From a virus, in the IMG/VR virus record IMGVR_UViG_3300046028_001942, positions 1 to 37,721 of that record: a DNA stretch of 37,721 nt, one strand, 5' to 3'. Below, in pieces: positions 3,923 through 37,721 of this stretch; the first letter of the stretch is position 1, and each line of letters opens with the position of its first letter. The notes under the pieces were generated by a model that saw nothing but the letters and a program-made list of their open reading frames with translations, did no database searches and was not told where the DNA came from. The translations under genes and the position numbers were made by a program.

Positions 3923-4730
3923 TTCTTAATTCCTTATTTTTTTCAATCATAGAATTTCTATAATCTACTGCAAGTTTCCAAGCAATTTCTTTTCCATATT
4001 TCTTATAACTAAAAGTCTTTGTTTTCTTAATACCAAAGATATTGTAGTATTCTACAAAAGCAGCAAATAAGTTTTTACCTGTACGTCTTTCAGAAATTCC
4101 ATTTATACCAGAGGTATTTGTAACCCTTAGAGCATTGGAAGTATGAACAATAGATTGCCTATTATTTTCAGAAATAGAAATCATTGATAAATTATCTATT
4201 TTATTATTAGATCTATTTGAATCTATATGATTTATTACTAATGTTTCATCTAGAGTTTTATTACATAATAAATATACAATTCTATGGCAACCGTATGATA
4301 CTCCGTCAACTTCTACCATCCAATAATTATTAGATTGAGAACCTGCTTCCATTCCTCTTTTAGTCTTGTATCCTTTATTTACTTTCCATCTTAAACAAGA
4401 CTTACTAGTTTCATCATAATAAAGCAATTCATTAAACTTATTATAATCTATAAATTTAGTTGACTCTTTAGTTTTTTTATTTACTAAACACCATTCTTTA
4501 TTTTTATTTGATAAGTAATTACCTTCAGTTTCTAATGCTTTTTCTTCTGAAAGATTGTCGTGTACTATTTCTACAGTATAACCACCTGCTTCATTGACAA
4601 TATTACGCCAAGATTCTGTTCTTTCTTTTCTATATGCGCGTTTAGTTCTAGTATTTCCTTTTCCAATATAAAAAACTATATTATTATCTTTTCTTCTGTG
4701 AAAGTAAACATAATAGTCATTAAATATCAT
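3906..4730 (-). CDS. Composite homing endonuclease: GIY-YIG, HNH and AP2 modules
   Basis: In 274 residues this protein joins three modules. Residues 5-75 look like a GIY-YIG nuclease (YVYF at 7-10, FYIGKG at 20-25, Arg34/Arg38 and the ALETEGNYL acidic helix at 65-73). Residues 145-192 look like an HNH nuclease (CHRIVYLL, then INHIDSNRSNNKIDNL with Asn167, His168, Asn176 and Asn180). Residues 208-262 look like an AP2 DNA-binding domain (SGINGISERR, then AAFVEYYNIFG). It sits between the holin-like and endolysin genes, one base after the former and overlapping the latter by 17 bases. That fits a homing gene inserted between two lysis genes. It would act on DNA lacking the insertion. Catalytic activity is inferred. 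Confidence 0.85.
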   Translation of the reverse strand: MIFNDYYVYFHRRKDNNIVFYIGKGNTRTKRAYRKERTESWRNIVNEAGGYTVEIVHDNLSEEKALETEGNYLSNKNKEWCLVNKKTKESTKFIDYNKFNELLYYDETSKSCLRWKVNKGYKTKRGMEAGSQSNNYWMVEVDGVSYGCHRIVYLLCNKTLDETLVINHIDSNRSNNKIDNLSMISISENNRQSIVHTSNALRVTNTSGINGISERRTGKNLFAAFVEYYNIFGIKKTKTFSYKKYGKEIAWKLAVDYRNSMIEKNKELRNETFN

Positions 4731-26884: not shown

Positions 26885-28390
26885 TTAAGCAGCGTTGTCT
26901 AAGTTTAAGGTAGAAGTATCTGTACCGCTCACTTCTGTACTAGTACCCTGACCAGCCGTTACCATACCATCACCTGCTCTTGAAGTATTACCAGATAAGA
27001 TATCTGTCTGAGGTTCTAGGTCATCAGGAAGAGCATCTAGTCCAGCAGCAGTTCTAACTGCATTAAGAACAGCGCGATCCTTCTCTACTAGACCAACAGA
27101 ACTAACACGTTGCCAGTACTTACTTAGTGTCTCAAGATCAACTGCGTGTAGATTTTCATAATCTAATGAAGCACAGCGTGAAACTTCCCAACCATTTAAT
27201 TCATACAACTGTCGAACTACATCTCTGTTAAAGCACTCAACAATATTATTAAGCATAGACTCAACAGCAGAACCAGTAAGACTGTTCTTAATCTGTCCAA
27301 GAGCAAATGAACCACCACCACCTTGACCTAAGACTAGTACATCAGCAAACAAACCTGTGTAGATCTGATTCTGGTAGTATTCTTTAACCTTAGAAGTATC
27401 AAAACTCTTCTTACCACCTTCAGAACTTAGTAGTCTAATATCAAATAATTTCTCTCTTGTATCTGGATCTACTTGCGAAGGTAGAATAATACCTGATTGA
27501 GAATTGTTCTGGATATTACGAATAATATTCTTAAAGTTTTCATAAATAAGTTTCTGCTCAGAAGAAGCATCAGAAGACATATACTGCGCTGGAATCTCAA
27601 GGATAGGAATACCCTGAAGATCTCGTGCTACACCAGACGCTTCGATCTCTTGGATGACCTCAAGGTATCTCCAAGCAAGATAAACATCCCTTAAGGGACT
27701 TTTACCGAAAGGATCACCTCTTGTTCTACCTGTAGTAATGTGTACGTACTTACTACGTGGAAGAACTACTTCTAGATCATTTCTTGCTGTGAAAGTATTA
27801 GTACCTACATTAGATAGGTTCTGCTTTACACCAATAATCTCATTACCTGTATCATCAAAGATAAACTTCTGGATAGTCTCTTGATTTCTTAAAGATAGTT
27901 TCCTTAAACCAATCTTACCGTCATCATACATACTACCATTAGACTTGAATCTTCTTCTGTAGACTTTCTCTACAATAGCGAAACCGTATACATTGCTTGT
28001 TAGAGCATCTCTAATGAATTGTCTGAATGGCATCTGCATATCAGATAAGCATTCATTAATAAAAGCCGCCTGTGCTTTTTCTTCTTCTGTAGCATCCCTT
28101 GGAGCAATTACTCTCCAGTTTACTTTAGAGATTAAGTTTTCATACAAAGTCAAACAAGCATTAATACTTGTGTGATATGACATTTGTTTATAAGTATCAG
28201 CAGAGTAAGGCCAGTTTAACTCTCGCTTGATTTCGTCGTTAGTTACACCGTTGAATAACTGCACACCTGTATAACCAAGTTCGCCTAGTCTGAATCTTTC
28301 AGGTTCATCCATATAGTTAGAAACAAGAGCCTTTACTACAGGTGCAGAAACAGCAGAGTCAGCAGATTGATCTTTCTTAGTCCTTGCCAT
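26885..28390 (-). CDS. Portal protein (DUF935/Mu gp29-like)
   Basis: This 501-residue protein has the size and position of a portal, the dodecameric channel for DNA entry and exit. Visible features are NEIIGVKQNL, a GRTRGDPFGKSPLRDVYLAWRYLE segment (the usual conserved region before the wing/stem), a helical stem (about 270-310), a LVLGQGGGGSF linker, and a disordered C-terminus. It directly follows the large terminase. The DUF935 match is my impression from the layout, not a search result. Confidence 0.87.
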   Translation of the reverse strand: MARTKKDQSADSAVSAPVVKALVSNYMDEPERFRLGELGYTGVQLFNGVTNDEIKRELNWPYSADTYKQMSYHTSINACLTLYENLISKVNWRVIAPRDATEEEKAQAAFINECLSDMQMPFRQFIRDALTSNVYGFAIVEKVYRRRFKSNGSMYDDGKIGLRKLSLRNQETIQKFIFDDTGNEIIGVKQNLSNVGTNTFTARNDLEVVLPRSKYVHITTGRTRGDPFGKSPLRDVYLAWRYLEVIQEIEASGVARDLQGIPILEIPAQYMSSDASSEQKLIYENFKNIIRNIQNNSQSGIILPSQVDPDTREKLFDIRLLSSEGGKKSFDTSKVKEYYQNQIYTGLFADVLVLGQGGGGSFALGQIKNSLTGSAVESMLNNIVECFNRDVVRQLYELNGWEVSRCASLDYENLHAVDLETLSKYWQRVSSVGLVEKDRAVLNAVRTAAGLDALPDDLEPQTDILSGNTSRAGDGMVTAGQGTSTEVSGTDTSTLNLDNAA

Positions 28391-28414
28391 ATATTAAAGG
28401 CTCCTTATATTTTA

Positions 28415-29899
28415 TTAAAAATTATTACTAGGTAATGTCAAACCTGAAGATGGTAAAGATATACCAGACATTTCAAATGAAGGTGCTTGAAACAAATCAG
28501 GCAAAGAAAATGTAGGCATTACAAAATCTTTATTCAAAAGACTAAAACAGTCACTTACGCAGTCAACTTGGTCGTCATGATGTTTACCAGATCCATCAAA
28601 TATCTCTAGTTCATCAAAGAAATCTTTATTCCATTCTGCCTTGACTACATTAACAAATCCTGCTTGTGCTACACTACTGAAAGGAGCAAATCTAGTAATC
28701 TTAGATTTAACAGGACGTTGTAATCTACAAGTAAATCCCATCTCACCAAGTCTCATTTGTAAGTTCTTGGCATAAGCCGCAGCAGCGGCATTCGGATCTT
28801 GTGGAATAGAAATAATAACTTCTGTACCATCTTGTACTGCTGTACTAAAGATAAGTTTCTCTACTTCATGTACTCTATCTCTTAAGCCTACTACACTTTC
28901 TATAGTATAAACTTTTGCTTTATCCTTAGAGATTAAAACACCTCTAGTCCAGTCTGGATTAGCGTACTGCTCAGAAGGTTTAGAGAAAGCAAAGTCCCAA
29001 GCACGAACCCGTTGTGTAGCCCTTGCATTTGCATGATCTACTAATCCAACCCAATCTCTCTTAAATAATCCAGATGACTCTTGTCTAGCAAACCAAGACC
29101 CAAGTAAAAGCCTCTCCATCTCTACTCTAGGTAAAGACATCAACCTGCTTATATAGTCAGGCTGTGCTTTTAATAAAGGAGGATTATCTCTACAAGTAGC
29201 AGGAATAAAAGTAAATGTAGACAGACCAGATTCATTACCTGCTCCATGAACAGCCTCTGCTTCTGCTAAAGAGTTATACCAAAGCATAGTATTACCTTGC
29301 CTGAAGAACCAACGCTTTACACCTGCTAGTTCTTCTTTAGGAATACCTGTATTTGCATCTAAGTAGAAATCCTGAATCCATGTTCTTAGGAATGAATTAT
29401 AATCAGGATTAGTCATCATGAACATCTGTGGTTTATAATCTACATACGCATTACGTAATCTAGATAATAAATACACAATCATATCTTCTGTGAAGTCTGT
29501 TGCTTCATCAAAAATAACTAATGAGTACTGACCACCTTTGTGATCGTACATATTACTAGCGTGCTGCATATGACTGAACTTCAGGATAGCACCATTAGGA
29601 AATAGAATCTCATTTTCTCTATGTCTAATACGCAAGCCTGTCTTATAGATTGAGGTGTACATATTAACGGCTTCATGCCAGATAGAGCCGGGACTCGTAA
29701 TCATTTTGCTAGTTCTACGAAAGATAACTCCTGTAGCCCTTGGGTGCTGCATAAACTTCAAAGCAATCAAAAGAGAAGTATATGTCTTACCTGATCCTGC
29801 TGAACCACCACATAAAGTAATGTTAGCATCAGAGTTCAAAAAGATCTCTTGCTTCTTCGAGGCAGGTGCTAGGCTAACAATTTCAGTATCGTTTTGCAT
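28415..29899 (-). CDS. terL: Terminase large subunit
   Basis: The packaging motor ATPase and nuclease, 494 residues. Walker A is GGSAGSGKT (31-39). Walker B is VIFDEAT (128-134) with Asp131/Glu132. The C-terminal nuclease has AWDFAFSK (Asp302) and the acidic HHDDQVD motif (440-446). It powers DNA translocation into the prohead and cuts concatemers. It starts 16 bases after the small subunit and has no strong ribosome site, which suggests translational coupling. The C-terminal 40 residues (Ser/Phe/Pro-rich) are probably a portal-binding tail. Confidence 0.95.
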   Translation of the reverse strand: MQNDTEIVSLAPASKKQEIFLNSDANITLCGGSAGSGKTYTSLLIALKFMQHPRATGVIFRRTSKMITSPGSIWHEAVNMYTSIYKTGLRIRHRENEILFPNGAILKFSHMQHASNMYDHKGGQYSLVIFDEATDFTEDMIVYLLSRLRNAYVDYKPQMFMMTNPDYNSFLRTWIQDFYLDANTGIPKEELAGVKRWFFRQGNTMLWYNSLAEAEAVHGAGNESGLSTFTFIPATCRDNPPLLKAQPDYISRLMSLPRVEMERLLLGSWFARQESSGLFKRDWVGLVDHANARATQRVRAWDFAFSKPSEQYANPDWTRGVLISKDKAKVYTIESVVGLRDRVHEVEKLIFSTAVQDGTEVIISIPQDPNAAAAAYAKNLQMRLGEMGFTCRLQRPVKSKITRFAPFSSVAQAGFVNVVKAEWNKDFFDELEIFDGSGKHHDDQVDCVSDCFSLLNKDFVMPTFSLPDLFQAPSFEMSGISLPSSGLTLPSNNF

Positions 29900-29914
29900 T
29901 TGTTATATAAGAGT

Positions 29915-30283
29915 TTATTCTTCCGGTTTATCTCCACTAATCATCTTTAGAGAGAATGTAGGCTGATTCTGTGCTTGTACTTCTGTCGCTTCAGCATCAG
30001 GATCTTCACTCTCGTATAAATCAAGAGTAAGCCTTCTGTAATTATCTAAAAGAATAGTAGCAGCCTTTAATTGATTCTGGTGCGCTGCTTCTTCGTTCTT
30101 CATGATCTTCGCTGCTTGCATAATAGCATCAGCAACGTGAGGTCTAATTCTACGTAGAAGCATTAAGAGTTCACGCTCTTTTAGACTTCTGTTTGTTTCT
30201 TTACCATCTTTAGGACGACGACCACCAATATTGATATTAGGGTCAGTCATTCCACCAAGTTCTTCTCTTTTCTTGAAAACCAA
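29915..30283 (-). CDS. terS: Terminase small subunit
   Basis: A 122-residue protein just before terL. The start is a TTG at 30283, with AAAGGAG six bases upstream and no better ATG. The middle (about 38-85) is a helical oligomerisation core (LLMLLRRIRPHVADAIMQAA, then a QLKAATILLDNYRRL helix). The N-terminus is basic (GGRRPKDGKETNRSLKERE) and probably binds DNA. The C-terminal tail is acidic. It recognises the packaging site and loads TerL. A 55-bp repeat and three hairpins lie directly upstream. Confidence 0.82.
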   Translation of the reverse strand: MVFKKREELGGMTDPNINIGGRRPKDGKETNRSLKERELLMLLRRIRPHVADAIMQAAKIMKNEEAAHQNQLKAATILLDNYRRLTLDLYESEDPDAEATEVQAQNQPTFSLKMISGDKPEE

Positions 30284-30300
30284 TTTAATCTCCTTTATTT

Positions 30301-30410
30301 GTATGTCCTGCTTAACAGGATTACTATGTTAGCCCTGCTTATTAGGATTTACGGTGTATGTCCTGCTTAACAGGCTTACTGTGTTAGCCCTGCTTACTTT
30401 ATACAGGATA
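30301..30410 (-). repeat. Tandem 55-bp repeat carrying four CCTGCTTA motifs
   Basis: Two copies (30301 and 30356, period 55) cover GTATGTCCTGCTTAACAGG and a following CCCTGCTTA segment. CCTGCTTA occurs at 30307, 30334, 30362 and 30389 (27-28 bases apart), and two copies make hairpins (CCTG-CTTAA-CAGG). Regularly spaced copies one helical multiple apart, just before terS, make this a candidate small-terminase (pac/cos-like) binding site. Confidence 0.75.
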
Positions 30411-30419
30411 GACTTTCGT

Positions 30420-30498
30420 GCTATAGTGTAATTACACGAAGCATTTAACGGTACTCAGTCGGTGTAGTAACTCTACACAAGTCCTAAGGTAGTAGGAC
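30420..30498 (-). other. Three consecutive inverted repeats upstream of terS
   Basis: GTGTAATTACAC (30426-30437) is a perfect 12-base palindrome. GTGTAG (30462-30467) pairs with CTACAC (30473-30478), and GTCCTA (30481-30486) with TAGGAC (30493-30498). They could be protein-binding sites or RNA hairpins between the zinc-ribbon gene and terS. Confidence 0.6.
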
Positions 30499-30504
30499 AG
30501 TTGG

Positions 30505-30714
30505 CTAAAGACCTGCGTCTGTTTCGTTTGAATCTACTTCATTAAAAACAGCAGCAGTTTTACCATTAGGGTTTACCAGCATCTGTATCTCTATCTCGCA
30601 CTCTTCATCTAATTCAACTACAGGAAGCACATAAGCACAATCCTGACAGTTATAACTATCGTTATAGAACTGCGTAATTCTATAGTAACTAGCACAAGTG
30701 ATACAGGTAGGCAT
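30505..30714 (-). CDS. Small zinc-ribbon protein
   Basis: 69 residues with two CxxC pairs, Cys4/Cys7 (PTCITC) and Cys23/Cys26 (YNCQDC), the pattern of a structural zinc ribbon. The second half is acidic (VELDEECEIEIQ) with a polar tail. Such proteins often bind nucleic acid or RNA polymerase, so a late regulator is possible, and its place right after the leader terminator fits an antitermination role. That is inference. No clear ribosome site is seen. Confidence 0.68.
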   Translation of the reverse strand: MPTCITCASYYRITQFYNDSYNCQDCAYVLPVVELDEECEIEIQMLVNPNGKTAAVFNEVDSNETDAGL

Positions 30715-30766
30715 TTATTATTAAAATCCGTAATAAAAGAAATAAAGGTTTACTTTATCGAAAGGT

Positions 30767-30789
30767 AAAAAAAAAGACTCTTTCGAGCC
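30767..30789 (-). terminator. Strong intrinsic terminator of the 31 kb leader
   Basis: On the minus strand GGCTC (30789-30785), a GAAA tetraloop and GAGTC (30780-30776) form a hairpin (one G-T pair), followed at once by nine Ts (30775-30767). It separates the 31 kb promoter from the zinc-ribbon, terminase and later genes, which would need read-through or antitermination. Confidence 0.88.
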
Positions 30790-31145
30790 TTGGTAAGTAA
30801 TAAATGCTGCTTACTATACTACAGCGTCGATGCCGCCCTAACGGGCCTTACATAAGATTCCTCCTATGTTCGACAGATCTAGCATCAGGGACTTGTACAC
30901 AACGGTTAATCACCAAATAGGTACAATCCTCTTCCCATCCCAATGGGTTCTTTAAATGGGTTCTTTAAAATTAGTTCCAGTTACTTATCTGGAGTTATGC
31001 AAGTTTTGCTTATCTATGATTTACGAGCAAAACAGACATAGCAGGTTTATGAAGATGCAGAGTCTATTCATTTATGTCGTCTAAGCAGGTACTATACGCT
31101 TAATATATAATTTTACAAAGACAGTATAAATAGATTTACAATTTC
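30767..31145 (-). ncRNA. Candidate structured leader RNA (about 375 nt)
   Basis: Transcription from the consensus promoter at 31152-31180 would start near 31145 and end at the terminator at 30767. No meaningful ORF lies between. The sequence folds easily: GTTTTGCT/AGCAAAAC (8 pairs, 31033-31026 with 31010-31003); TCCAG/CTGGA; CCCAT/ATGGG; TTGTAC/GTACAA around a GGT/ACC hairpin; and GATGC/GCATC closing a junction with ACATA/TATGT and GCCC/GGGC hairpins. This is a strong hint of a functional RNA. It matches no family I know (not tmRNA-like, no RNase P signature). Confidence 0.55.
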
Positions 31146-31151
31146 TAGTAA

Positions 31152-31180
31152 ATTATAACATCACAATACTGTATTGTCAA
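31152..31180 (-). promoter_or_regulatory. Consensus sigma70-like late promoter before the leader RNA
   Basis: The minus strand has TTGACA (31180-31175), a 17-base spacer and TATAAT (31157-31152), a perfect consensus match at both hexamers with optimal spacing. It is preceded by ATATACC. It fires toward the terminases. Confidence 0.93.
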
Positions 31181-31225
31181 GGTATATGACGTTTGCTATT
31201 TCCGAATAGAGAATACAGGTAGATC

Positions 31226-31717
31226 TCATTGAGAGATAGTGTATTTCCCTAGCACTTTAATAAACTTGAGTTGAAGTTTAGTAAACTTCTTTCTTGCTAT
31301 CGTTATATCAGATATCACTTCGCGCTTTATCCTACCCTTGTACTTATATTCAAGCACGTAAGAAAAAGCATCTCTTGAATGCGGAGTAATCTTTAAATTA
31401 CCAGATAAGTTCTTTAGAGACTCTTGAATAACAAAATACTCTTTCTTAGTAATAAGAATAAGGTTATTAAGTCTGTTATTATAAATATCTAAGTCTTTAT
31501 GAAACACCACCTCTGTCGAGGTAGGGTAGTAGTTATGCACTAAGCACCAAACAAGTCTGTCGTACTTAATCTTTAACCTAATTGAATTTACATTAGTTAT
31601 AACCATATGCTCTTCATTAGGTAGAAGTTTTCTATACCTGACTTTATCTTTAAGCACAAAGATATCTCCTGTAGAAGGAATATATTCTAGATGCTCAGAT
31701 ATTTCAGATATTAGCAT
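31226..31717 (-). CDS. HNH-AP2-like homing endonuclease, possibly degenerate
   Basis: The ATG follows AAGGAG by five bases. In 163 residues, residues 56-96 fit an HNH core (DRLVWCLVHNYYPTS, then VVFHKDLDIYNNRLNNLILI with His73, Asn80, Asn84). The first HNH histidine, expected where YDRLV stands, is replaced by Asp. C-terminal residues 115-160 (SYVLEYKYKGRIKREV and following) resemble the AP2-like part of phage homing endonucleases. A mutant or specialised enzyme is likely. It sits alone between the two late promoters, upstream of the leader RNA. It is too short and lacks RuvC, so not IscB. Confidence 0.7.
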   Translation of the reverse strand: MLISEISEHLEYIPSTGDIFVLKDKVRYRKLLPNEEHMVITNVNSIRLKIKYDRLVWCLVHNYYPTSTEVVFHKDLDIYNNRLNNLILITKKEYFVIQESLKNLSGNLKITPHSRDAFSYVLEYKYKGRIKREVISDITIARKKFTKLQLKFIKVLGKYTISQ

Positions 31718-32146
31718 TGTACTCCTTGATGTATCTTAGGTTGTATTCTTGGTTTAATCTTAAGTTTCAATCTTGTAAGTATATACTTTGTACTTCGTTA
31801 GAAGATGAAATATACTAAGTATTAGTTAACACATAAGATGACAACAAGATTTAGCACTAAGAAATTAGCACTAAAGTCTTAACACTAGACTTAATAAGAC
31901 TAAACTTATACTACTAAAGGTTTAGCACTAAGATCTAAGCACTAAGATAAATAATTTACTAAGTTAAATAAACTCAGTCTCTTTCAAGTCAGAATCCTCT
32001 ATCTAAGATATATACCTTAGATGTAATCTTGTAAGTATATAATTCAACATTGTTAAATAGTTTAATATAGTAAGTATTAGATTAGTGTTAAGGTTTGATC
32101 TTAGAATATATATCTGTCGATGTCATCCTGTATACAATATAATTTA
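31718..32146. other. AT-rich non-coding region with repeats
   Basis: No coding region was seen here. It holds five TTAGCACTAAG-like repeats (31851-31946) and two diverged direct copies of about 69 bases (31769-31837 and 32025-32092). It also has a perfect hairpin ATCTAAG/CTTAGAT (32001-32022) and a 19-base block (31979-31997) also found inside the ClpP-like gene. It would be the 5-prime leader of the HNH-type gene transcript. It could also act as an origin. Confidence 0.7.
31851..31946. repeat. Cluster of five TTAGCACTAAG-like repeats
   Basis: TTAGCACTAAG occurs at 31851 and 31922, with variants at 31865 (TTAGCACTAAAG), 31879 (TTAACACTAGAC) and 31936 (TAAGCACTAAG). Spacing is 14, 14, 43 and 14 bases. 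All are in the same orientation, like iterons or operator half-sites. Confidence 0.72.
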
Positions 32147-32175
32147 ATTGTATCATATTTTTGTGGTAAAGTCAA
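32147..32175 (-). promoter_or_regulatory. Sigma70-like promoter before the HNH-type gene
   Basis: The minus strand has TTGACT (32175-32170), a 17-base spacer and TACAAT (32152-32147), preceded by TACC, one base off the consensus at each hexamer. It is divergent to the candidate plus promoter at 32208-32235 and gives a leader of about 430 bases. Confidence 0.72.
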
Positions 32176-32207
32176 GGTAAGATTTCGGACTAAATTTCAC
32201 TAACCTA

Positions 32208-32235
32208 TTGCTTTTTCAAAAAGTACTGATATAAT
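32208..32235 (+). promoter_or_regulatory. Candidate promoter for the PhoH/ClpP operon
   Basis: TTGCTT (32208-32213), a 16-base spacer and TATAAT (32230-32235), about 95 bases upstream of the first plus-strand gene. The -10 is perfect, the -35 weak. Confidence 0.6.
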
Positions 32236-32334
32236 CAAAGAGTACCTTAAAAAGAGGTGTAAATAGAAGTACTCAAAAATATATTTTATTTTTTTTATAA
32301 AAAGACCTAAACCAATTGACAAGAAGGAGCAAAT

Positions 32335-32679
32335 ATGCCTGACTTTAAATATCCAACAGTCCAGATCGAAGCCTATAACCTAGCAGAGTTCTGTACTAAA
32401 GTTCAAGAAGCCTTTACTAAAGGATTCAGATTTGATCTAGAGAGTAATACTAACTATCCTACAGCCTTCGGAGCGTACTACTCTGCTGGTATGCAACTAA
32501 AGGTAGAACCTAATAAAGAAGTTACTTATAATACTGTTCTAGACCCAGTTCCAGAACAAGAGATTTCTGCTCAAACTGAAGCACAATCACAAGCACAAAC
32601 CCAAGCACAAGAAGGTGCTACAGGAGCAGAGTACGATCTAAGCCCTAAAACAAGCACCAGAGCCTCTAAGAAGGTATAA
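32335..32679 (+). CDS. Unknown protein with low-complexity Gln/Ala tail
   Basis: A 114-residue protein with the strong site AAGGAG seven bases before the ATG. The first 70 residues look globular (PTVQIEAYNLAEFCTKVQEA). The last 40 are low complexity with AQTEAQSQAQTQAQEG, probably disordered. I do not recognise it. It heads the operon of PhoH- and ClpP-like genes, and a structured 84-base gap follows. Confidence 0.72.
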   Translation: MPDFKYPTVQIEAYNLAEFCTKVQEAFTKGFRFDLESNTNYPTAFGAYYSAGMQLKVEPNKEVTYNTVLDPVPEQEISAQTEAQSQAQTQAQEGATGAEYDLSPKTSTRASKKV

Positions 32680-32708
32680 CTAAGGGCTACCTAGCCAAAT
32701 GACTTATG

Positions 32709-32746
32709 AGACGCTCCTAGAGGCTTTAAAAGGCTTCTGGAGGTCT
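32709..32746 (+). other. Imperfect hairpin upstream of the PhoH-like gene
   Basis: AGAC (32709-32712) faces GTCT (32743-32746), CTCC faces GGAG and AGA faces TCT, around TTTAAAA. It contains CGCTCCTAGAGGCT, identical to 14 bases after nrdB (3344-3357). The ribosome site of the PhoH-like gene follows directly, so it could control its translation. Confidence 0.55.
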
Positions 32747-32763
32747 AGAAGAAGGAGTACGTA

Positions 32764-33540
32764 TTGAAAAGAGTAAACAAGACTCAAGATATGCTAGTAA
32801 AGAAAGAAAAGTTCGCTAGAGTTCAGTTCCCGCAGTTGCTACCTATGAATGAAAAGCAAACTCAGTTATTAGATGCTCTTAAATACAGTACATTGGTTGC
32901 AGCACAGGGTTCTGCTGGTACAGGTAAGACACTTATTTCTGTATGGCACGCTGCTAAGAGGTTGCATTACGGTGATGTTAAGAAAGTAGTCTTGATCAGA
33001 GCATATCAACCTCTTGCTGGAAGAAGCATTGGATTCCTCCCCGGTACTCTAGATGAAAAACTCCTTCCGTATTATCAACAACTTATTGATTACTTTGAGG
33101 ACTATCTAGGTAAGGCTTCTACCGAGATTCACATCAAGAACAAGACTATTGAGATCTGTAGTCTAGAGACAATCAGAGGTCGTAGTTGGAACGACAGTAT
33201 TATTATAGTAGATGAAGCACAGTCTTTATTTGTACCTGAAGTACAAGCACTAGTTACACGAGTAGGTAATAACTCACAGATGATCTTCTGTGGAGATGAT
33301 AGCGGTATCCAGACAGATGTAAAGAACACAATGAATGGTCTTACTTATCTTCGTAAGATCTGTGAAAAGTACAAGATTGCTGATAGTACTTTTGTTAACT
33401 TTACTAGAGATGAAATCGTAAGAAGCGGTATTACTAAAGAATTCGTAATTGCCTTTGAAGAAGAGTTGTTTGCTGATGCAAGAGGTGAAAGTATCATCTC
33501 TATTCAAGATCAAGACAAGCAATTCAAAAAGTCAAGGTGA
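32764..33540 (+). CDS. PhoH-like ATPase
   Basis: The start is a TTG at 32764 with GGAG six bases upstream (258 residues). An in-frame ATG at 32791 is the alternative. Walker A is GSAGTGKT (49-56), Walker B IIIVDEAQ (146-153), followed by FCGDDSG and a helical C-terminus. This is the single-domain P-loop fold of phage PhoH. It is common in phages but its role is uncertain: helicase- or RNA-related in the related bacterial proteins. The stop lies in the first unit of a 59-base tandem repeat. Confidence 0.88.
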   Translation: MKRVNKTQDMLVKKEKFARVQFPQLLPMNEKQTQLLDALKYSTLVAAQGSAGTGKTLISVWHAAKRLHYGDVKKVVLIRAYQPLAGRSIGFLPGTLDEKLLPYYQQLIDYFEDYLGKASTEIHIKNKTIEICSLETIRGRSWNDSIIIVDEAQSLFVPEVQALVTRVGNNSQMIFCGDDSGIQTDVKNTMNGLTYLRKICEKYKIADSTFVNFTRDEIVRSGITKEFVIAFEEELFADARGESIISIQDQDKQFKKSR

Positions 33541-33654
33541 CTTTTCTTGCAATACGAGAAACCTATTTGTTTCTCTTGCAGTTCAAGAAATCAAGGTGAT
33601 TTCTCTCTTAATACGAGAAACTTATCTGTTTCTCTTGCAGTTCAAGAAATCAAG
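33532..33654 (+). repeat. 59-base tandem repeat after the PhoH-like gene
   Basis: Copies start at 33532 and 33591, and a third partial copy starts at 33650 (period exactly 59). Each has GAGAAAC-xxxxxx-GTTTCTC and an outer TTTCTTG/CAAGAAA pair, making a long imperfect hairpin. The first copy holds the PhoH stop codon, so the repeat spans the gene junction. No T-run follows, so it looks like an RNA processing or stability element. Confidence 0.78.
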
Positions 33655-33690
33655 ATAACAAATCTAATCTAACTAACATAAAGGATACCA

Positions 33691-34509
33691 ATGCCTAAGC
33701 ACTACTTAAATATCACAAAGACTAATAAGACTCTTTCAAGTCAGAATCCAACAAGTAAGATTCTTTCAAGTCAGACTCCTTCATCTAAGTCGTTTAACTC
33801 TAGTAAGAAAAATCACGCTTTCGCTAAAGGTCACGAAGAAGAGATTGAACTAGAAGAAGAATCACCTACTGCACTAGGTTTCTTTCAAAGATTCCGACAG
33901 AACAGATGCTTAATCGTACCTATTGACGAAGGCGTTAAGGAAGCATCTTACTATAGGTCAGTTACTTATGGTATCTCAGAGTTATCAGAAGGTGATATCG
34001 TAGAGTTTAACATTAACTCTCCCGGTGGGAATCTAAACGGTCTGATTGCACTTCTATCTGCTATCTCAGAAACAGATGCTCACGTAATCGCTAACATCAC
34101 AGGTGAATGCCACAGCGCAGCAAGTATCCTTGCTCTTAACTGCGATGAGATTAGAGTCTCTCCGCATTGCACTATGCTAGTTCACCATGTCTCATTCAGC
34201 ACAGGAGGCAAAGCCGCTGATATCAGAGCATACGTAAATCACCTTAACGAGAACACAGAAGAACTTCTACGTAAGACTTATACTAATTTCCTAAGCGAAG
34301 TAGAGATTGAGAATGTCTTGAATGGTCTACAACTCTGGCTAGACGCTGATGAAGTTATCTCTAGACTAGAAAAGAAACAAGAGATCGAGTATAAAGAGTT
34401 TGAAGAAGCAAAAGAACTTAAACTAAAAGAACTCGCTGAAGAAATGGAAGACCTCGAAGAAGAGATTATTAATCTTCCTAAGTCTAAACCAAAAAAGAAG
34501 AAGTCATAA
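33691..34509 (+). CDS. ClpP/crotonase-fold serine protease
   Basis: A 272-residue protein. Residues about 72-225 match the ClpP-like fold: the oxyanion segment NSPGG (109-113), catalytic Ser142 in GECHSAAS, and His165 in MLVHH, with acidic residues at about 218-220 as the third member. It begins with a Ser/Lys/Asn-rich leader containing the repeat SSQxP-xSK, and ends with a Glu/Lys coiled coil and basic tail (KSKPKKKKS). Many phages carry such proteins as head maturation proteases, but this one is far from the head genes, so it may be regulatory or a stand-alone peptidase. Confidence 0.8.
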   Translation: MPKHYLNITKTNKTLSSQNPTSKILSSQTPSSKSFNSSKKNHAFAKGHEEEIELEEESPTALGFFQRFRQNRCLIVPIDEGVKEASYYRSVTYGISELSEGDIVEFNINSPGGNLNGLIALLSAISETDAHVIANITGECHSAASILALNCDEIRVSPHCTMLVHHVSFSTGGKAADIRAYVNHLNENTEELLRKTYTNFLSEVEIENVLNGLQLWLDADEVISRLEKKQEIEYKEFEEAKELKLKELAEEMEDLEEEIINLPKSKPKKKKS

Positions 34510-34516
34510 TAACTAG

Positions 34517-34549
34517 CCCTTGGACTAACCATCCAAGGGTGTTTTTTTT
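34517..34549 (+). terminator. Intrinsic terminator of the PhoH/ClpP operon
   Basis: CCCTTGGA (34517-34524) pairs with TCCAAGGG (34532-34539), followed by TGTTTTTTTT. It lies 8 bases after the stop codon. Confidence 0.93.
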
Positions 34550-35022
34550 ATTTTAAACTATACTAATTTATACTTTCAAGGTTTACACAAAGGTTTTATA
34601 TACTAAATATCAATACTGACTTATATTAATGTATTCTTAAGTAACTTCTGTAGTGTTAAACCTTTATCTGTATTTATTTATACTTGTTTATTTCAGTTAT
34701 CTTACTCTTATTGATAATCTATTTGCATTAATATATGCTAATATCATCTATCTTTCTTGAGAATGATTTTGCAATAACAACTTTGCTTACGTTTTGTTCA
34801 CGCTTTGGTTAAATAAGTTTGTTAATTATGGTAGTTTATACTTGCAGTATGGACTATAGGCTTGACAGTCTCTACCCTTCTCTTTTGTCAATCATATTAA
34901 AATTCCAAAATATCAATACTAGATTACCTTCGAATACTCTCGGTCTAAAATTTTTATTAATATATACTAGTATCTCAGATACTATATATAGTATCTACAA
35001 CCCCCGATATACTATAGTAAAA
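34550..35022. other. AT-rich non-coding spacer
   Basis: No gene was seen. It contains a TTGACA/TGTCAA inverted repeat (34862-34889) and a perfect 20-base palindrome, AGATACTATATATAGTATCT (34977-34996). It leads into a change in base composition at about 35000. Confidence 0.6.
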
Positions 35023-35050
35023 CCCCCGAATGATACTATCCATTCGGGGG
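35023..35050 (-). terminator. Intrinsic terminator of the right-hand minus-strand operon
   Basis: CCCCCGAATG (35023-35032) pairs perfectly with CATTCGGGGG (35041-35050) around an eight-base loop. On the minus strand TTTTAC follows. It lies eight bases after the stop of the 45-residue membrane protein, which supports that small gene. Confidence 0.8.
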
Positions 35051-35058
35051 CTGATATA

Positions 35059-35196
35059 TTACCTAAACTTGCCGATGATACCCTTTGCGATTATGTAAGC
35101 GAGTGAGATAATGCAGACTAAAAGGGTTATCGCGTAGAGTATAAACGCCAAAGATAACCCTCCGAAAATCAGAATTAGGATTGTGCAGAGAATCAT
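35059..35196 (-). CDS. Tiny hydrophobic membrane protein
   Basis: 45 residues, MILCTILILIFGG then LSLAFILYAITLLVCIIS, ending in IAKGIIGKFR: almost entirely hydrophobic with a basic C-terminus, enough for one long or two short membrane helices. The ribosome site GGAGGG is seven bases before the ATG. A 12-base SD-like tandem repeat lies upstream and a perfect terminator follows. It could be a holin-like or superinfection protein, but there is no clear family. Confidence 0.75.
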   Translation of the reverse strand: MILCTILILIFGGLSLAFILYAITLLVCIISLAYIIAKGIIGKFR

Positions 35197-35203
35197 TCGA
35201 CAA

Positions 35204-35257
35204 CCCTCCGATATACCCTCCGATATACCCTCCGATATACCCTCCGATATACCCTCC
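35204..35257 (-). repeat. 12-base tandem repeat with repeated Shine-Dalgarno-like GGAGGG
   Basis: Four perfect CCCTCCGATATA units (35204-35251) plus a partial fifth. Read on the minus strand each gives TATATCGGAGGG. The unit nearest the gene supplies the actual ribosome site of the tiny membrane gene. Repeat number could change spacing or ribosome loading. Confidence 0.82.
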
Positions 35258-35275
35258 CGATACTATCCGGTCGCA

Positions 35276-35980
35276 TTATGCTCGTGCCATCATAAAAACC
35301 CGCTCGGCCTTTTTCTTGCCCGAGCCATGCACCGGAAAAGCGACGATCGAGCGTCGATTCTGATTCTGACATAATCCACAATTCGAGCATGTGACAGTAT
35401 CCGACGATACCGCAGGGCAGATAACAACGGGTCGCCCTGCTGGGGTATAGGATAACCGGGGATGGTCTATCGGCACAATTGAAACAACAGGGCCAGCCTG
35501 CAGTTCTGCTAGGGTATCGGCGTGCTCGAGACTATTTGCCGATAGATTAACGGTGAATCCGTTGGTGTTCGCCTTGTCGATACTCGCCCAATTCGAGCGG
35601 GAAACAGCGTCAGAACCCTCGATGCGGTGGTGCGTGTAGGTGAACCCGCGCTTACCCTTGTTGGCGCTTGTGAGGGCTTCTAGGGCGCATGCGTCGATGG
35701 TCTGAGCATTGTGCAGGAGATCCCCTGCGACGTTCATGCGCCAGAGGGTGCCACGTGGCAGGGCTTGGATCTGAGTCAGCATCTCATCATATGACCCGGC
35801 TTGCTCGCCCTTGGACACCCTACGCCAATGCAAAGCCACCATCCCGGTCTCCGCATAGCACCCTGAACCCTTAAGCGGGCAGTTACTGGGGCACGACGTT
35901 GATTCGGTCATTGTGACGGGTATCGGGCCAGTCTTCGAATTCGAAGAAACACGGGTGAATTTTACGTAGTCTTTTCGCAT
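35276..35980 (-). CDS. Cys-rich phage protein (DUF7227-like)
   Basis: The ATG at 35980 (GGA seven bases upstream) is preferred over a TTG at 35992, giving 234 residues. Two cysteine clusters stand out: Cys30, Cys34 and Cys41 (CPSNCPLKGSGCYAETG), and Cys188, Cys198, Cys201 and Cys204 (TCSNCGLCQN). They could bind metal or an Fe-S cluster. The N-terminal motif is shared by a family seen in many phages (DUF7227), without known function. The C-terminus is basic. G+C content is well above the left part of the window. Confidence 0.82.
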   Translation of the reverse strand: MRKDYVKFTRVSSNSKTGPIPVTMTESTSCPSNCPLKGSGCYAETGMVALHWRRVSKGEQAGSYDEMLTQIQALPRGTLWRMNVAGDLLHNAQTIDACALEALTSANKGKRGFTYTHHRIEGSDAVSRSNWASIDKANTNGFTVNLSANSLEHADTLAELQAGPVVSIVPIDHPRLSYTPAGRPVVICPAVSSDTVTCSNCGLCQNQNRRSIVAFPVHGSGKKKAERVFMMARA

Positions 35981-36020
35981 GGTATTGTCCAAAAAGGGAA
36001 GAAACCACCCCTATGGTATA

Positions 36021-36037
36021 GGGGGGGGGGGGGGGGG
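36021..36037 (-). repeat. Homopolymer tract of 17 C (minus strand)
   Basis: Seventeen G on the plus strand, directly upstream of TATACC (36020-36015) on the minus strand and about 40 bases before the Cys-rich gene start. Long tracts slip easily during replication, so length may vary between genomes. It could also be a sequencing or assembly length error. Confidence 0.85.
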
Positions 36038-36045
36038 TTATGTCA

Positions 36046-36381
36046 TCAAGCCTTTATGATTCGAGCATATGCGCTGGTCCGGCTTGTTTCAACCGAGTAA
36101 CCCTCTGCCTTAATGCTTAGGATTCGATCACGTGCAACGTGCCGGGGTGCATCGAATTTTGCAGAACCAGAACGAGTCCAAACAAGAAAATAATCCTTCT
36201 TCGATTGTTCTGACCTAGGTTGACCACCCTTGAGATACTTTGTTACACCAGTCCGGCCATTCAATTTTCGGGTGCTACCGTCTGCCTTGAGGAATTCTAT
36301 TGTCACCCAGCACCCGCGCTCGACTGCTTGCGTGGCAGTAGCAGAGAATGGTGCAGCATCGGTAATATATGGGGTATTCAT
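36046..36381 (-). CDS. WYL_2/Sm-like SH3-fold protein
   Basis: A 111-residue protein with WVTIEFLKADGSTRKLNGRTG, then TKYLKGGQ and RHVARDRILSIKAEGYSVE. That is the pattern of the phage WYL_2 (formerly DUF2693) family with an SH3-like barrel, associated with nucleic acid or ligand binding and regulation. GGA lies eight bases before the ATG. A C-tract directly upstream of TATAAT (36416-36411) stands before it. Role unknown, probably a small regulator. Confidence 0.72.
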   Translation of the reverse strand: MNTPYITDAAPFSATATQAVERGCWVTIEFLKADGSTRKLNGRTGVTKYLKGGQPRSEQSKKDYFLVWTRSGSAKFDAPRHVARDRILSIKAEGYSVETSRTSAYARIIKA

Positions 36382-36416
36382 TTTTGATTATCCTAGAGTT
36401 TAGAGTTTAGATTATA

Positions 36417-36426
36417 GGGGGGGGGG
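36417..36426 (-). repeat. Homopolymer tract of 10 C before TATAAT
   Basis: Ten G on the plus strand. On the minus strand the tract separates the upstream stop TAA from a perfect TATAAT (36416-36411). It resembles the 17-C tract before the next gene. Confidence 0.85.
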
Positions 36427-36555
36427 TTAATAAATCAGGGCATCCAGCCCGTGGAGAATCATAGCAGACAAGGCCAGCCCGATGGCGATAGCGCAGAAAA
36501 TACTGGCCGCATTATCGTTGGCGAGAATTCGATTCATTCGATTAGCGCGTTTCAT
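36427..36555 (-). CDS. Tiny protein with one membrane segment
   Basis: 42 residues: basic start MKRANRMNRI, then a hydrophobic stretch (ASIFCAIAIGLALSAMILHG, 18-37). Its ATG overlaps the stop of the preceding 57-residue gene (ATGA), so the two are coupled. A short stop leads into the C-tract. No family recognised. Coupling and codon character support a real gene. Confidence 0.6.
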   Translation of the reverse strand: MKRANRMNRILANDNAASIFCAIAIGLALSAMILHGLDALIY

Positions 36556-36725
36556 TTTGAACCCTCAAAAGATGCCCGGATTGATTCCGCTTCAATTTTA
36601 GATTGTCCAAAGTATAAGTGGCCGTTGATACCCTCGGCGCACCAGTCACACACACCAAATTCGATTTGCTGTTCTATATTCAAATCAGAAAACGATGGGC
36701 AAAGATATTCATACGCTGATTTCAT
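36552..36725 (-). CDS. Tiny protein with CDWC motif
   Basis: 57 residues, start ATG with GGAG five bases upstream. It has CDWCAEGINGHLYF (26-39) with a CxxC pair, and an acidic helical end. It could bind zinc with only one such pair plus Cys9, or a disulfide. It is coupled to the next gene. A palindrome CTCAACCGTTGAG (36744-36756) upstream could be an operator. Confidence 0.68.
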   Translation of the reverse strand: MKSAYEYLCPSFSDLNIEQQIEFGVCDWCAEGINGHLYFGQSKIEAESIRASFEGSK

Positions 36726-37142
36726 AATCGCTCCTTTTTTCGTCTCAACCGTTGAGCCGATAACTAGACTTTATCACACAATCCAAACCCTGCAAGACTT
36801 ATTTTTTGTAGGGTTATTCGGTGCGATTCTGACCCAACTAGAAAAGAACAACGCGCGCGCACACGTAGCAAAATCCATGCCAGAAAATCAATCCCCAACT
36901 TATCCACACCTTGTGGACAGTTTGTTGATAACCCTAAGTTTCCCCTATGGGGCTGGCTGTTGATAACGTGTGAAAAGCCGCAGGACGCTCTAAGTTTATT
37001 TTTGAATGGCAGGGTATCGACTCGAGCGAAAACGCGCCCTAGGGCCTTCTGGGTGCCTTCTAGGGCCATGCAGGGTTAACCCTAGGATGCCAGAATCGGG
37101 CTTGCTGGCTGTTCGTTGGCATGGATCTTGCTAGGCTCTCCG
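36726..37142. other. Non-coding region with DnaA-box-like sites
   Basis: No convincing gene was seen. TTATCCACA (36900-36908) matches a DnaA box exactly. TTGTGGACAG (36911-36920) and two TGTTGATAA (36923-36931 and 36958-36966), read in reverse, are near matches. Such a cluster suggests an origin of replication or a regulated region. The overlapping open frames in this stretch look like chance. Confidence 0.65.
36744..36756. promoter_or_regulatory. 13-base palindrome, candidate operator
   Basis: CTCAAC and GTTGAG separated by one base. It lies between a weak promoter-like pair (minus strand TTGCAG 36795-36790, 16-base spacer, TAAAGT 36773-36768) and the first ATG at 36725, where a repressor would block transcription. 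Confidence 0.5.
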
Positions 37143-37418
37143 ATTATCTCAAACAGTATATACTAAAGCCAGATACCATTATGTATTCGGTATATACTAA
37201 AGCGAGATATCATTATCTCAAACAGTATATACTGTTCCGGTATACCCTTATCTTCTTCGATTATCCTCTTCGGTATATACTAAAGCCAGATACTAGTATC
37301 TCCGACCTATAACATTATCTCACCGATACCCCGAAAGGTCTTCTATAATACCCGAGATAAGTCTTCTATAATACCCGAGATAAGTCTTATATAAGACTTG
37401 AGATACTATACTAGTATC
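37143..37418. repeat. Arrays of AT-rich direct repeats and palindromes
   Basis: A 22-base repeat occurs at 37143 and 37212 (ATTATCTCAAACAGTATATA onward). Three copies of a 21-base unit beginning GTATATACTAAAG are at 37156, 37190 and 37273. Two perfect copies of a 23-base unit beginning GTCTTCTATAATACCCGAGA are at 37338 and 37361, with a third degenerate copy at 37384. Palindromes lie at 37288-37301, 37384-37397 and 37402-37418. They sit beside the DnaA-box cluster like iterons. Confidence 0.85.
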
Positions 37419-37564
37419 AAACAGATAATATTATCAGTATTAGGGTTTTCCCTTATTTTGGCCCCACCCCGCCTCGAAGATCACTTTTTGCTCAGGTTGG
37501 TTTTCCTTTTCTGGTATACCCTAGACTGCCAAGGGTTTTTTGATCTAAACCAGCCAAGGGTTTT
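37419..37564. other. Non-coding spacer with two hairpin-like repeats
   Basis: GCCAAGGGTTTTTT appears at 37528 and 37553, 25 bases apart. ACCCT (37519-37523) faces AGGGT (37532-37536) followed by T-runs, so a plus-strand terminator is possible. No coding region was seen. The minus-strand gene at the right edge ends here. Confidence 0.5.
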
Positions 37565-37720
37565 TTAGCCTTGTTTTGAGTCCCTGATATAGTCAATTGC
37601 AGTCTCTGAAATCTTAAGGGTACAAATCCATGTTTGTGAATTCAGTCTTTTGTCGATGCTCAGGAAAGCCTCAAGTTCAACAAGAGCAGCCTTCTGATGT
37701 ACTTTAGTTGGGTTGCCCTC
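37565..37720 (-). CDS. Unknown protein, C-terminal part (starts beyond window)
   Basis: An open frame of 51 codons on the minus strand from the right edge to the TAA at 37567-37565. The end reads NPTKVHQKAALVELEAFLSI, then TWICTLKISETAIDYI and a charged RDSKQG tail. No family recognised. The stop is followed by the repeated GGGTTTTTT hairpins, fitting a gene end. The start lies outside the window. Confidence 0.6.
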   Translation of the reverse strand, partial: EGNPTKVHQKAALVELEAFLSIDKRLNSQTWICTLKISETAIDYIRDSKQG

Positions 37721-37721
37721 T

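Follow-up and report, generated by a model that had tools for sequence, protein, structure and literature searches.

What kind of genetic element is a short transcription unit without a credible gene, which lies directly in front of the packaging genes of a phage? We have analysed such a unit on the minus strand of an IMG/VR virus record (IMGVR_UViG_3300046028_001942; its whole stretch of 37,721 nucleotides is called the window here). A preliminary description of this DNA proposed a dedicated structured RNA of about 375 nt. According to our analysis a structured RNA is indeed encoded there, but the proposed length does not hold, as the conserved unit, named RNA1 below, comprises only the first ~177 nt. 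We consider it probable, although with considerable reserve, that RNA1 is a stand-alone, trans-acting non-coding RNA gene of a new family, residing in an RNA island of freshwater phages.

Results

The perfect promoter and the GAAA-capped terminator with nine Ts, from which the unit was originally recognised, are both present in the window (Table 1). The promoter boxes TTGACA (31180-31175) and TATAAT (31157-31152) stand on the minus strand with a spacer of 17, and this 12/12 match is the sole one in the stretch 28000-37721 and the sole perfect one window-wide, while 0.057 perfect promoters per window are expected by chance. The transcript inferred from these signals runs from 31145 to 30767 on the minus strand and has 379 nt, close to the earlier estimate of ~375 nt without an ORF of note: the longest ATG/GTG/TTG frame within it on the same strand encodes 31 aa, and none is credible. 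Its minimum folding energy is -98.5 kcal/mol (z = -3.05), which was equalled by none of 100 shuffled sequences. The minus-strand gene order in the window is an HNH gene, the 379-nt RNA unit, a 69-aa zinc-ribbon gene, terS, terL and portal, and the location ascribed to the unit, upstream of packaging and late genes, was therefore correct.

Table 1. Coordinates of the features discussed, as positions in the window
Feature	Position	Strand	Basis or remark
RNA1, conserved structured RNA domain	30969..31145	(-)	model R1 match; single-sequence MFE gives same helices
Conserved apical loop region UAUUAAGCG of P3 hairpin	31097..31105	(-)	alignment A1
P5 hairpin, in the window without UCCUUU loop	31003..31033	(-)	member comparison
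P6 hairpin UCCAG-AUAAGUAA-CUGGA with ACUAAU tail	30967..30993	(-)	same 3' element ends RNA2
Lineage-specific 3' extension	30792..30968	(-)	hairpins 30893-30926, 30850-30869, 30835-30846
Sigma-70 promoter TTGACA-17-TATAAT, TG before -10	31152..31180	(-)	predicted start ~31145
Intrinsic terminator, GAAA loop, nine T	30767..30791	(-)	stem-loop 30791-30774, Ts to 30767
HNH_3 endonuclease-like gene	31226..31717	(-)	Pfam PF13392, E 1e-6; regular upstream neighbour of RNA1
Small CxxC...CxxC zinc-ribbon protein, 69 aa	30505..30714	(-)	usual downstream neighbour of RNA1
Diverged RNA2 copy	30381..30496	(-)	model R3 (window left out), 24.8 bits, E 2.5e-5
terS, TTG start	29915..30283	(-)	position before terL, homology across loci
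terL	28415..29899	(-)	PHROG terminase large subunit, E 1.7e-151

No phage record was matched when the window RNA was used directly as a blastn query. A terL search of viral contigs yielded 39 loci, of which about half keep the order HNH - gap - zinc ribbon - terS - terL, and in many of the loci keeping the HNH/zinc-ribbon order the gap is filled by a recognisable conserved segment. Further loci were collected via a DNA pattern and an HNH profile, the terS alignment being too diverged to serve for a pattern search; four DNA-pattern matches in bacterial assemblies had no match to model R2 and were taken as chance. RNA1, about 180 nt long, is now recognised at some 50 loci of phages. Two of these phages are in culture, Limnohabitans phage DC31 and Curvibacter phage P26059A, which infect Limnohabitans and Curvibacter, respectively. 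The covariance model R1, built from 18 members with the window left out, matches the window at 30969-31148 (84.1 bits, E 3.4e-17), and R2 matches the RNA1 of P26059A, which is part of no RNA1 model, at 82885-83070 of its record (99.9 bits, E 2.9e-19). In DC31, the nearest cultured phage to the window, RNA1 is unannotated; it is flanked by two unnamed genes and shortly precedes a set of five tRNAs. The paper on DC31, in a term search, yielded nothing on non-coding RNA. No description of RNA1 was found in the literature, but subscription journals were mostly outside this search and an earlier description is not excluded.

The predicted transcript begins with the long arm P1, which contains twice an internal-loop motif of the GUAAA/CCUGC type, with 5' GUAAA against 3' [A/C]CCUGC. 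It is capped by the P3 hairpin with the apical loop UAUUAAGMG, in which UAUUAAG is invariant in all 20 sequences of alignment A1 and is followed by MG. The P4 stem encloses the P5 hairpin, whose loop carries UCCUUU in 38 of the 47 members compared and CUCCUUU in 33; the nine members without UCCUUU are the window, L002, L015, L026, L035, L037, L040, L081 and L112. In the RNA1 consensus the P6 hairpin has the loop A-NNN-GUAA and the tail ACUAAU.

Pairing was evaluated in two alignments, the sequence-only A2 (18 members), which gave an RNAalifold consensus of 46 pairs, and the model-fitted A6 (47 members). Compensatory changes in aligned relatives, on which the proposal of a structured RNA had been made dependent, turned out to be abundant: two-sided changes occur in 24/46 pairs in A2 and in 42/46 pairs in A6, and the covariation score is 0.374 against 0.174 for shuffled alignments in A2 and 0.669 against 0.190 in A6, with 0/500 shuffles reaching the observed value in each of these four comparisons. 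In A6 94.4% of the cells pair, and only 31-38% when the partner is slid by 1-3 columns. Since a fitted alignment leans to structure, we regard the 18-sequence result as the conservative one. The window's own minimum-energy fold has the same helices as the consensus. A conserved coding frame, which would have refuted the proposal, is absent, as in 0/47 members is a frame open throughout RNA1, and the RNA1 lengths are spread over all three residue classes modulo 3. We regard the conserved fold of RNA1, its promoter sequence, its synteny and its non-coding nature as shown; that it is a conserved structured RNA we hardly doubt.

The unit of the window is composite and consists of RNA1 (31145-30969) and a lineage-specific 3' part (30968-30767, including the terminator), for which only the near-identical L002 has a homologue. 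The extension contains a 13-nt tandem duplication at 30942-30967, and its parts fold with z of only -1.3 to -1.7 against shuffled sequence; with a single homologue and folding barely above shuffled, we claim no fold for it. Since most relatives have no terminator at this place, we assign the terminator to the variant of the window's lineage, so that it was rightly noticed in the window but does not belong to the unit in general. Other folded-looking inserts follow RNA1 in L037, L038, L040 and L054, and the site after RNA1 therefore seems to be variable. By eye, the segment after RNA1 in L054 (12905 onward) and L096 (5660 onward) is similar to int-alpA RNA (RF02996).

The island has the order HNH - RNA1 - zinc-ribbon gene - tRNAs - RNA2 - terS - terL. 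The HNH gene stands before RNA1 in most homologous loci and encodes a protein of ~160 aa, in which Pfam finds HNH_3 alone and no further domain. In most of 50 members a near-consensus TTGAAA-type promoter with TATAAT lies directly upstream of RNA1; L034, L035 and L040 have none, and in L040 tRNA-Asn ends at 4636 and RNA1 starts at 4641. tRNA clusters adjoin RNA1 in most close relatives, with a tRNA-like sequence preceding it in L035 and following it in L085, but not in the window, where ARAGORN found 0 tRNA or tmRNA genes. A terminator downstream of RNA1 was seen in the window and in L083; most relatives have no intrinsic terminator there, so that transcription of many RNA1 copies may continue into the genes that follow. 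In the DC31 group RNA1 is directly followed by a second, strong promoter and then by the zinc-ribbon gene, in P26059A the zinc-ribbon gene is immediately downstream of RNA1, and in L035 it is upstream. With such variable neighbours RNA1 is not bound to any particular gene downstream of it.

RNA2 is a second conserved structured RNA of ~190 nt, located just upstream of terS in most relatives (for instance, L012 5446-5637 and L137 17358-17551). RNAalifold gives 35 pairs for 17 sequences, 28 of them with two-sided changes, and no Rfam family matches RNA2. Its 3' end resembles that of RNA1, with a hairpin of the same type and the tail ACUAAU.

Several other elements were observed in this region. 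Rfam places int-alpA RNA in the same island of L009 (2623-2688) and L038 (3571-3637), and group I introns (RF00028) lie downstream of terS in L037 (6327-6529) and L038 (4989-5200). In the window two 42-nt direct repeats, 95% alike, stand in the 3' portion of the terS leader (30300-30396), with a shorter version in the near-identical L002. The divergent intergenic region of the window contains a pair of AATCTTGTAAGTATATA boxes (31769-31825 and 32025-32080, 256 nt apart) and, at 31851-31945, four exact TWAGCACTAA boxes; both kinds are possible operator or origin sites. The minus-strand product of 35276-35992 matches DUF7227, a domain of unknown function (E 1.5e-90).

Discussion

RNA1 constitutes a new family within a kind of element that is already known. 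The window has no match in Rfam 15 at the gathering threshold and only weak chance matches at a relaxed one, and RNA1 gave none in 13 relatives and none in L012 at the relaxed threshold. Consequently it cannot be recognised as a GOLLD, ROOL, tmRNA, RNase P or 6S RNA, in agreement with the preliminary description, which had recognised no known class.

GOLLD and ROOL form homo-oligomeric RNA cages, and the small RNAs of T4 lie within the T4 tRNA cluster. Like RNA1, GOLLD and ROOL are structured non-coding RNAs of phages and prophages, often near tRNA islands, and their function is still unknown (PMC12286853). RNA1, being located beside phage tRNA genes in most of the close relatives though not in the window, meets the criterion of this tRNA-island kind though not of either family: many GOLLD members exceed 800 nt as compared to ~180 nt of RNA1, the folds differ, and Rfam gives no match. 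The T4 band C and D RNAs are small RNAs of a virulent phage with unknown function (cited in PMC4933390). RNA-seq of Pseudomonas phage PAK_P3 detected two abundant late small RNAs, sRNA1 and sRNA2, in a zinc-ribbon/terS/tRNA/terL region equivalent to the RNA1 island, although the phage is only distantly related (PMC4933390). Its terS, gp161, matches DC31 terS with E 1e-6 and is adjoined by a zinc-ribbon-like gene; sRNA1 comes after terS, and sRNA2 looks tRNA-like by sequence. Homology of the PAK_P3 RNAs to RNA1 is nevertheless unsupported, as R1 and R2 have no matches in the stretch L076 that contains both sRNAs, and what they share is the same place and habit only. In Pseudomonas phage PAK_P2 (L138) the R2 match is weak (E 0.1), on the opposite strand and both over and beside its HNH-like gene, and we rejected this phage as a carrier. 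A non-coding segment of ~400 nt, which has a TTGACA-type promoter and in which R2 finds no RNA1, precedes the zinc-ribbon gene of L138 (6270-6745); it may be an unrelated RNA in the same place. The best reading is that RNA1 occupies the niche of GOLLD, ROOL and the PAK_P3 sRNAs without being related to them. The int-alpA RNA (RF02996, ~71 nt) is a separate element, which RNA1 does not match. The phi29 pRNA is a packaging-associated phage non-coding RNA, and RNA1 is also encoded near packaging genes, but there is no Rfam match and no evidence tying RNA1 to the motor.

From the described contexts it would be logical to ask whether RNA1 is rather a cis-acting leader of the late or tRNA operon, working by antitermination like HK022 put or as the leader of a switch like lambda pR'-tR'. 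The lambda 6S leader (pR'-tR') and put share with the window's version of RNA1 a promoter, a short RNA and a terminator before late genes, and the window's order of a strong promoter, short untranslated RNA, terminator and zinc ribbon/terS/terL resembles the lambda late switch; besides, the window's zinc-ribbon gene has no good second promoter in front of it, and P1 begins where transcription is predicted to start. However, an element of the put kind should always be promoter-proximal and act in cis, which is unmet in the three promoterless members, among them the L040 copy directly after a tRNA, while relatives of the DC31 type have their own strong promoter immediately after RNA1, and the gene downstream varies, up to the upstream zinc-ribbon gene of L035. 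RNA1 also differs from the lambda leader and put in its strong fold conservation and its placement after tRNAs in some phages, and put is smaller and less elaborate. We see only a minor chance for the leader explanation. The variety of contexts favours a free RNA, and we hold it likely that RNA1 is a free trans-acting RNA, with both the trans action and the transcription being inferred in the absence of transcript data.

The regular position after the HNH_3 gene could mean that RNA1 partners the HNH protein, either guiding an RNA-directed nuclease or serving as its substrate, or else belonging to a homing element. This is quite improbable, since the ~160-aa protein has HNH_3 as its sole Pfam match, no HNH gene was detected within the examined stretch of L034 and L035, which have RNA1, other genes intervene between the two in L040 and P26059A, and HEARO was not matched in the Rfam search. 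Still less credit can be given to the conserved fold being a DNA element, an origin or a packaging site, which the adjacent terS and terL might suggest: the promoter points into RNA1 in one fixed orientation, the position of RNA1 relative to the tRNAs shifts, and pairing within a single strand that tolerates G-U is the behaviour of an RNA. As for a short protein, the 31-aa frame has the same orientation as the unit in the window and falls within its 3' part, and for RNA1 itself the frame and length data given above have already refuted such a product; we regard it as practically ruled out.

Taking RNA1 as a free RNA, we may suggest how it would work. Host sigma-70 RNA polymerase would make it from the near-consensus promoter, starting at the first base pairs of P1, while in a few phages it may be excised from a tRNA transcript instead. 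The molecule is predicted to fold into the long P1 arm, the P4-P5 arm and the terminal P6 hairpin, which would close it, and during infection it may act in trans, with the translation apparatus or the start regions of mRNAs as its likeliest targets. In the majority form the action would proceed through the P5 loop CUCCUUUC, in the manner of the 16S anti-Shine-Dalgarno tail, which UCCUUU resembles. The lineage of the window would have lost the P5 loop motif and gained a second folded part with the terminator. Short RNA1 motifs also seem, at first sight, to resemble the 16S 3' end.

A role in translation is no more than tentative, and the translation target is inferred. In ten genomes the own P5 loop paired to mRNA starts no better than swapped loops, and all P5 loops pair better than reversed ones, as is expected of any anti-Shine-Dalgarno sequence. 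The best complement of the DC31 loop, 14 nt in the start region of a 66-aa gene (L140 30741-30941), was dropped, as this gene is present in 0/26 related records. Neither the ten-genome loop swaps nor the 26 DC31-related records provided a conserved or co-varying target, as sought for an sRNA acting on Shine-Dalgarno regions. Because these two target tests gave nothing specific, the role remains a hypothesis with modest support, and for the window's own RNA1, where the P5 motif is missing, it is weak. More specifically, RNA1 may act on host translation as an anti-Shine-Dalgarno mimic and form with RNA2 a two-RNA set recognised via the shared 3' hairpin (loop A-NNN-GUAA, tail ACUAAU); we mention this combination as a rather unlikely one.

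The 3' hairpin common to RNA1 and RNA2 suggests that one factor binds or processes both, and offers a tangible starting point for work on their function. Since two of the freshwater phages that carry RNA1 are in culture, it can be deleted or used in pull-downs without delay. The tRNA-island RNAs of phages, such as GOLLD, ROOL, T4 band C and D and the PAK_P3 sRNAs, have had no function assigned for decades, and RNA1 adds to them a compact and strongly supported new family.
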